Assembly (NCBI GenBank): GCA_018398765.1
Contig: JAHBMJ010001811.1
Span: 1-25,808, forward strand
Direction: 5' to 3'
Origin: Chromera velia
Taxonomy: Eukaryota > Sar > Chromeraceae
DNA length: 25,808 nt
Below, piece after piece: positions 3,764 to 17,407 of the stretch (position 1 is its first letter; every line of letters starts with the position of its first letter). The notes beneath the pieces were generated by a model. It was not told where the DNA came from. It searched no databases and saw only the letters and a list, made by a program, of their open reading frames with translations. The position numbers were made by a program, and so were the translations under genes.

Positions 3764-6700
3764 CTGCATTCACACACACACACACAGAGAGAGAGAGAGA
3801 GAGAAAGAGGGAAAGGAAGAGAGACAGAGACAGAAGACACACACACACACACACACACACACACACATTACTACACACACATACAGAAAGAGAGAAAGAG
3901 AGAGGGCGCGGGGGGGGGACACGAGAGAGACAGCGCCCGACACAAGTGCAAAAGATCCACTTGAGACCACCTGCCAGTTATGTCAGTCGCGACGAGGAAG
4001 CCTTCGCGCATGATCTGCACAATTTGAGACGACTGGATGGATTATGAGACTGTTCCAGCTCATGGAGGCAGAACGTTCTCAGTCAGCCGCAACTAACGCG
4101 GGCAACGAGAGCAGCGGAGAGGGAGGACCTCCAGCCGGGGAATGAATTCCTTGCAGTTCAGTCAGGAAGGAGTGAGAAGAAAAGCGTGCGTGAACGGATA
4201 AGGACATATGCATCGATACAAAACGATTTATCAACGAAGGGAATCAAGGGCCAGTACTGTTCTTGTCCGTCTGCTGGCTGACGTGGAGGGATGAGTGGTC
4301 GAGCTCGGCCGTGTGCTCGTTGTTTCTGTGCTGTGCGATCGCGTCGTGGTGTTTGTTGACGACCACGCAGACGAAGAACGCCACGTTGACCCCTCCGTAG
4401 ATCAGCATGAGGGGAATGGACCTGCGTGGACGGACAGGGAGAGAGAAGGAGAGAGAGAGAGAGAGAGAGAGAGAGAGAGAGACAGAGAGAGAATGTTTCA
4501 TTCTTCCGTCTGCTTTCCTTTTCATCTGACAGGCTATATCTGACTGACAGACAGACAGACAGGCCTTTAGATGGATAGACAGAGAGATGAACCGACCACA
4601 AGGCAAGTGGACAAGCAAGCACGAGGTACGAGGAAAGAGAAGAAAGACCACAATTGAACCTGGGAAGAAGTGCCGCTTCTCTTCATCCATGCCTCCTTGC
4701 ACTGAAGGGGGAGGGGGGACGACAAAATGTGCGCAAAACCCAGTGAAAGAAAGAAAGGAGTGCAGAAGAACACAGAGAAGGAGAACTTGTGGCTCCTCCA
4801 CCAAAAACGACCCAGAACCGGAAAGCCTGCTTGCCCCATTTGAGCGGAATTGTTAACTGAGAGAAATTGTTCTTTCAGAAGACAAATTGAATCCCGGGAG
4901 TTCAGTTTCTGCAAACCACCTATGCAGGCCTCTCCTCTTCTTTCATCTCCCCTCTCTGCCTCCTCTAACTGGAACTACTCACAGGAATGGGTCGGCAAGG
5001 AATCGCATGAAGGCCGAGATGTAGTTGTCTGTATAGAAGTGCACGAGGTCTTGGAGGTTTCTCTGGAGTCTCGCTGTGTCGACCTCGGGTTCCCCTCCCT
5101 GCTCCTGTTCCTGTAATTGCCTCAGGAGATCCTCTTCGTCTTCTTCATCAGCACGGTACAGCTTGCAACAGGAAAGACAGGCCCGTCTGCAGACATGCAG
5201 GACACGCAGAAGAAGGAAGAAAACATAGATAGATTGAAAAACGGAAGAAAGAAAAAAAAGCGAAACGAGAGGAAAACGAGACAGACAGCTACGAGCAGAG
5301 GGTTGTAAAGAAAAGCGAAGAGGAAAGAGACAGACAGTCTAGCAAGAGAGAGAGAGACACAGAGGGAGAAGGCCAGGAAGGACGGTAAGGTCATCCATCA
5401 AGAAACGACACAAATCAAGGTAGGTCTCTGAAGAAAACACGGAGAGGGGACAGCAAAAGGGCCCGGAGTAAGGAAGTTGAAAAAAGAACAAATGCAGCAT
5501 GGGTCAACTTGCGAGAAGCATTGTCAAGAGCCGGACAGAAACAGCGAGACAAGAGTGACAATGGAAACTGCGGAAGGCGAAAGGACTTCAACTGAGCATC
5601 TTACCTGCCTACCGACTGACTGCCTGACTGCCTGACTGACCTCGTGAGGGTCTCTGAGGGAACGAAGGTTTCCAATTCCTTGAAAGTTCTGTTCACGTCC
5701 GGATCGTCCTTGACTGCGTCTCTCACTGCGTCCACCTTTTTTCGGAGCTCGTCCTCTTCGTCGCCCTTCCTCACCATCAGGTCATAAAACTCTCTGCAGG
5801 AACAATGCAATCATTTACTTGAACAGCCCGACATATCATTCTCTACCTGGTTCTCATCACGACCGTGTCACTGTTCTGCATCGTTCCACTTAAACATCCT
5901 GTCGTCCAACTGAGAGCCCATTCACATCCAGACAAAGATAGGGACAGAAGAAAAGGAAAGCAAAGAACGCAAAAGAAAGAGGATAGAAATAAAGCAAAAC
6001 CGAATCTTTTTGACGTCTGCACCAAGTCCCCTGACTGAAGTAAGTCTGACCTGATCATATGGAGTCTCCACACTCTTGTCTCAAAGCTTTCGAGCCCGTA
6101 CATCCACACCACAAAGAGAAGCTGCAAGCATGAGAGAGAAAGAAGGACCAAAATAGTCGAAAAATGTGGAGATCAAGTGGAACTCACAGACTGAAAAGAA
6201 GGCACAAGGAAGGACAACAAAAAGGCACACAAAATTTTCCACGACTGGAAAACGACAAAAACCGAAATATCAATGGACGGACGGACCGATGAACAAACAA
6301 ACCAATCGACAAAGCAAAAAAAAAAAAACATCTGCAGGACGTGCACCCGTGCTTTAGATACGTACAGCCCTTGGCTTTTCTTTCTTCTCGTCACATCCTT
6401 TTCTCTCTCAATCAACATCGATGGGCATGCAGACAAACCTGAATCGCTGCCGCGAAGCAGATAGAACCCAGGAGGATTGAGAAGAATGCACACCCGAATT
6501 CCTACACACACACATACACGGGGAGGGGAGCGTGGGGGCGGAGAGAGAAACACACACAGAAAAGGACAGGCCATTTCCCTTCCTCATTGATCTGTCAGTT
6601 GTTCCTTTCGTGTCTCAGAAGGCACTCGACAAAGGCAGACAGGCAGACAGAAAGAAAGCGTCCTGTCGAGACCCCACAGTTTAAATTCCTGACAGGCACA

Positions 6701-17407: not shown

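Follow-up and report, generated by a model that had tools for sequence, protein, structure and literature searches.

The window analysed here, an entire contig of the Chromera velia genome (C1808, 25,808 bases; the genome searched holds 177.8 Mb in 4040 contigs), raises the question of why many introns in two genes begin with a 5' splice site (donor) repeated head to tail every four letters, and of which of the copies is cut. The original prediction had quoted nine such GTNN repeats; all nine are present in the sequence, with positions and strands correct, and each begins an intron in one of two gene models that can be read through.

The first model, on the minus strand (4244..10511), is a single open frame from ATG to TGA with 15 exons (10511-10148, 9772-9664, 9309-9282, 8974-8885, 8597-8541, 8081-7973, 7763-7723, 7619-7585, 7377-7308, 6984-6910, 6501-6439, 6121-6051, 5793-5641, 5186-4983 and 4421-4244), of which the third, of 28 nt, is the least secure choice. 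The product of 548 amino acids was labelled a membrane protein by eye, and a Pfam search returned no family for it at an E value of at most 0.1. The second model, on the plus strand (12119..17407), is a MEKK-like protein kinase of nine exons (12119-12191, 12538-13728, 14143-14185, 14456-14666, 15008-15161, 15509-15589, 15966-16162, 16715-16794 and 17266-17407), with a frame open to its TGA and a 5' end that is untraced. The Pfam Pkinase domain scores 20.1, 35 and 51.5 bits on three exon-bearing ORFs, two of them above the cut-off of 31.7, and the junction peptides GEGAFGSVY, HRDIKGANV and CLQYDPEKRP are what we take to be ordinary kinase motifs.

Other features of the window include a (CCAT)7 array (8088-8115) immediately upstream of the exon 6 acceptor of the minus strand gene and a long (TG)n array (15867-15962) immediately upstream of the exon 7 acceptor of the kinase. 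Leucine-rich coding-like stretches at 1-1193 on the plus strand are interrupted by the contig end, and the ORF at 549-1193 (plus strand) had no match in the Pfam search. A dispersed repeat is present in two copies on the plus strand (18770-19075 and 23780-24087; 93.8% identity over 308 columns). A weak MIR7533 match on the minus strand (13750-14024; 37.6 bits against a cut-off of 230) lies over CT/GA-rich simple sequence and is probably not a miRNA.

With a slash between exon and intron letters, the tandem donors of the minus strand gene are caa/GTCAGTCAGTCAC (9651..9663), aag/GTCGGTCGGTCGGTCGG (9265..9281), gac/GTGAGTGAGTCGG (8528..8540), gag/GTCAGTCAGT (7963..7972), gta/GTCAGTCAGTCAGTCAGTCAGTCA (6886..6909) and gag/GTCAGTCAGG (5631..5640). 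Those of the kinase gene, on the plus strand, are aag/(GTCT)7 (13729..13756), which interrupts the P-loop GEGAFGSVY, ggg/GTCGGTCAGG (16163..16172) and ata/GTCAGTCAGTGG (16795..16806). Two near-tandem donors, ttg/GTCAGTCG (12192..12199, plus strand, a 7-nt match) and cag/GTTTGTATGTATG (8872..8884, minus strand), were absent from the earlier list. Over all 22 donors of the two models, exact (GTNN)x2 occurs at 8 and GTNNGT at 17.

For donors outside the window we used an unselected set of 36 from 12 loci (19 myosin and 17 CCT), picked regardless of repeats. Myosin heads were found in the genome via PF00063 and CCT chaperonins via PF00118, and junctions were set by the frame and length expected from the family profile. 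Fourteen of 17 myosin exon pairs were kept (the third pair of L025, the first of L026 and the second of L028 were dropped); with the first unit, 13 of these junctions match the length of the Pfam profile exactly and the remaining one is at +1. Reading supplied five more myosin donors, two from L025 and three from L027, whose introns were checked solely for a GT start, an AG end and a unique donor word; locus L030 yielded no donors and a truncated copy (L031) was left out of the counts. For CCT 17 of 18 junctions were kept (J11 was dropped), and the first unit fits exactly in 16 of them. The other one, J7, was kept at +6, over a zero-deviation pair with a poor acceptor, by its length fit to a CCT1 sequence. 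Where several zero-deviation pairs existed (J2, J3, J9, J10, J12 and J16), the better acceptor or the fit to a CCT sequence was chosen. It counts against the seeding model proposed below that at these six CCT junctions, and at L026 364-404, other GT/AG pairs, some of them with a later unit, fit the length too. As interior control served 622 first-of-run GTs within 41 curated introns (19 myosin and 22 window).

A four-letter periodicity at donors in comparison with intron interiors, which the original prediction had put forward as a check, was borne out at the 36 homology-fixed donors, a set narrower than all annotated donors. Position +5 is G in all 36; GTNNGT is found at 24 of them against 57 of 622 interior GTs (Fisher p=2e-15), and exact (GTNN)x2 at 9 against 20 of 622 (Fisher p=7e-6). 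Further into the intron G returns as a comb that fades from 26/36 at +9 to 20/36 at +13 and 17/36 at +17; the three positions combined give 63/108 against 91/396 at the remaining positions from +7 to +20 (p=1e-11). The comb came to light in donors among which the myosins already figured, and the CCT donors, added later, repeat it more weakly on their own (27/51 against 52/187, p=0.0013), with exact doubling in 6 of 17. The GTNN donor repeats are a real feature, and beyond the window two gene families show them again.

The donor consensus is an unusual one; the 58 curated donors (window, L025-L029 and L041-L061) have C at +3 in 35 cases and A or G in 18, A at +4 in 27, G at +5 in 56 and T at +6 in 43, and GTNNGT (GY at +1 and +5) is present in 41. 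The consensus at donors and acceptors was first hinted at by a purpose-built HMM gene finder, neither version of which carries any important conclusion here. Its earlier version, which was not scored on the window donors, placed exact doubling at 10/147 donors against 78/6088; the retrained version recovered 4-7 of the 22 window donors, and in one version the conditional excess was absent (3/19 against 81/479), which counts against the seeding model. Genome-wide prefix counts were 397 for CAG/GTCAGTCAGT and 176 for ACG/GTCAGTCAGT (backward-pattern controls 128 and 78), a ratio of 2.26 that is near the sample background of CAGGTC to ACGGTC (126:58, or 2.17). At the other end of the intron, TGCAG closes 32 of 41 curated introns, and pyrimidines occupy 171/205 of the odd acceptor positions from -7 to -15 against 114/205 of the even positions from -6 to -14. 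An excess of lag-4 identity at acceptors, seen in the 41 introns (141/328 against 102.8) yet not in the 19 myosin introns (58/152 against 51.7), is not claimed.

If the comb were purely positional, the N letters of successive units should match no more than the column composition predicts. Over the 36 donors the N letters four positions apart are identical in 113 of 216 cases against 63.5 in column shuffles (p=0.0005, the floor), and at lags 2, 3, 5 and 6 identity is not significant against the same shuffles. The CCT subset gives 55/102 against 31.2 at lag 4; in this subset lag 2 is raised as well (32/102 against 24.1, p=0.0135), which counts against the seeding model. The lag-4 identity persists where myosin and window donors lack an exact array (66 against 45.6) and is a mark of tandem duplication. 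Of the 24 GTNNGT donors in the 36-donor set, 9 have the NN letters doubled exactly, where shuffles average 2.9 (p=0.0006); the myosins by themselves, with 3 of 12, do not exceed the 1.8 of the shuffles (p=0.27). Counting against a property special to donors, the 9/24 is no higher than the 20/57 at interior GTNNGT sites, many of which are presumably arrays themselves.

Tetranucleotide arrays of at least 10 nt number 556 in 226 kb (the window and 20 stretches); a single first-order Markov simulation gave 50, which makes the observed number 11-fold higher. Several of the random stretches L005-L024 carry retroelement-like protein fragments, with tetranucleotide-coded ORFs such as CLSVCLSV. A myosin gene (C1231, L027) and a truncated copy of it (C3136) differ by one GTCT unit in one donor array, and a second donor of the same pair differs by a net four letters. 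The copy (L031-L034 comprise C3136 and the C1231 flanks) is partial, carries an exon frameshift and matches the gene at 85-91% identity over the larger aligned segments, including introns; since it is truncated and frameshifted, the unit may have been gained or lost in a gene already dead. At this one locus pair units would seem to come and go, and it is silent on the unit cut; a paralogue argument for anchoring at the 5' side was dropped, the second copy being truncated and frameshifted. Slippage-driven duplication, one of two readings that the original prediction had offered, is the best supported, given the lag-4 excess of the N letters and the GTCT unit difference; the other, frame-shifted isoforms, is weakly supported at best.

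We propose, with a probability of about 70%, that the GTNNGT donor seeds repeats in a slippage-prone genome and that the intronic copies accumulate nearly harmlessly. The donor can be written roughly as CAG/GTNNGT: G at +5 hardly varies, C is the preferred letter at +3, and +4 is close to unconstrained. Such a hexamer would already amount to a four-letter unit repeated one and a half times. Where tetranucleotide arrays build up as they do in this genome, slippage would duplicate a unit downstream of the cut. The spliceosome would cut unit 1, the sole unit with exon letters (e.g. CAG) to pair with U1, and because the cut would fall there the extra units would remain intronic and nearly neutral. 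Later they would decay, leaving a G and T comb of four-letter period that fades by about +17, and as the conserved first unit would persist as a seed, arrays would keep re-forming.

Possible, though unlikely, is that the array itself is functional, overlapping U1 sites every four letters raising U1 occupancy so that poor exon ends are tolerated, with unit 1 still being cut. It is likewise doubtful that in this lineage the 5' splice signal, instead of a 9-letter site, is the extended fading comb (G at +1, +5, +9, +13 and +17), working as a tandem U1 landing array in which the first register is cut, further registers make up for poor exon ends and the repeat number tunes donor strength. A function would fit the weaker comb of those myosin and window donors (28 of 41) that lack an exact array (39/84 against 77/308; G at +9 in 17 of 28). 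It would also fit the exon ends: in the unselected set tandem donors have AG at -2,-1 in 3/9 cases against 21/27 for the others (p=0.036, uncorrected for several tests), and over all 58 donors in 7/17 against 28/41 (p=0.08). Neutral slippage predicts no such difference, so AG-poor exon ends at tandem donors count against it; should the link be real, a weak exon end might be offset by additional units. The link is weak and not significant under most other definitions tried.

The pairing with U1 argues against a functional array, as that of later units is mostly poor. The U1 5' end looks canonical (AAACUUACCUG), U1 genes L002 and L003 carrying AAACUUACCUGG, and the idea of a U1 altered to fit GTCAGT was rejected; a third U1 match (L004) was below the cut-off and without the canonical 5' end. 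U6 has the ordinary ACAGAG box in two genes read. Among the 41 donors having a second unit, the U1 duplex energy is best with unit 1 in 36, worse in 3 and equal in 2, and by the number of pairs unit 1 is better in 32, equal in 6 and worse in 3. Later units often reach about -0.4 to -3 kcal/mol, and most first units -5 to -15; unit 1 pairs best because exon letters such as CAG precede it only. Donor 6909 is one of three tandem donors at which a later unit pairs slightly better, and at donor 16795 too a later unit pairs slightly better than unit 1. The lag-4 identity of the N letters, for its part, points to duplication, for which a plain functional comb has no need.

Improbable is the reading in which transcripts differ in the unit cut and so give frame-shifted isoforms. 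The original prediction had held that consistent models often need the second or third unit; this finds no support, since unit 1 keeps both models in frame at all 22 donors (14 in the minus strand gene and 8 in the kinase). Unit 2 or 3 used alone brings a premature stop at each of the 17 window donors that possess a second unit. At donor 16795 unit 1 is required, because any later unit leaves a TAG in frame before the cut. At five window donors unit 4 restores the frame and adds four residues, and in the minus strand gene 200 of 138,240 unit combinations reach the stop codon of the model with the frame intact. Phase alone therefore does not force unit 1 everywhere, and isoforms by unit 4 or by paired shifts are possible. 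The junction of exon 3 is the single real choice of unit in the window models. There unit 1 of donor 9663 joins the acceptor GGGAGCAG/A (exon from 9309) and unit 2 would match an alternative acceptor TGCACAG (exon from 9338); a learned matrix scores these acceptors 0.17 and -3.17, respectively. The reading frames suggest that the first GTNN copy is the cut site, presumably also in RNA, and the U1 pairing favours it as well. In human and mouse, passages of PMC4267661 describe GYNNGY tandem donors that are spliced alternatively, which speaks for isoforms, and the same passages have the first GY preferred and the alternative use mainly as noise.

That the repeats date from the origin of the introns, a tandem duplication or an introner-like insertion having copied a GT-bearing target and left repeats at the donor, is very improbable. 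Direct repeats of 3-5 nt at introner boundaries in Amoebophrya (PMC7789003, in part) lend it some likelihood, but in the 41 curated introns a 10-nt run of period 4 starts at +1 to +5 in 13 and ends at -1 to -5 in one, against the two-sided trace of such an origin. Chance or a model artefact, that is ordinary microsatellites at guessed donors, is scarcely credible, for although four-letter arrays are abundant throughout the genome the same pattern stands at homology-fixed donors outside the window.

If seeding by the GTNNGT donor holds genome-wide, it would be a natural case of a splice signal breeding microsatellites, a direct test of how the spliceosome chooses among near-identical donors four letters apart, and a means of asking if the repeats found in introns are moulded by the consensus of the splice sites. 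For gene predictors a wrong unit breaks the frame, and the annotations of such a genome could be corrupted. The C. velia genome has been described as 193.66 Mb in 5953 scaffolds with many low-complexity regions (PMC4501334), and the main text of that chromerid genome paper, in the portion available, has no match for 'splice'. The literature matches dealt with tandem donors, those of the GYNNGY type included, with introners and with microsatellites (for example, the best 12 of 11,707 and the best 10 of 100); among the matches listed, multi-unit GTNN arrays at donors are undescribed in titles and opening abstracts, subscription papers and supplements lying outside this scope.

The GTNN arrays are a variant of already known tandem donors. 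They share with the GYNNGY donors of human and mouse, as these appear in the part of PMC4267661 drawn on here, two GY donors four letters apart, shifts of four letters that alter the frame, and a first site that is favoured in human and mouse and agrees with the reading frames of the present models; they differ in that some arrays have 3 to 7 units, with a comb fading to about +17. With the canonical GTRAGT donor of the U1 type they have in common the canonical U1 5' end and U6 ACAGAG box, +5 G and +6 T, whereas +3 is mostly C and +4 is A in 27/58 only. The introners of Amoebophrya resemble them in short direct repeats close to the intron ends, as far as the extract of PMC7789003 goes, whereas the curated introns of this study are GT-AG because the test required it. 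Microsatellites are marked by more exact tandem repetition of 1-6 nt units than chance would give, and the donor arrays show it. With those of tetranucleotide type they share exact head-to-tail units of four letters and, at the one locus pair compared, a whole-unit difference in length between two copies; unlike these, the arrays described here are tied at one end to a conserved functional site, from which they fade.
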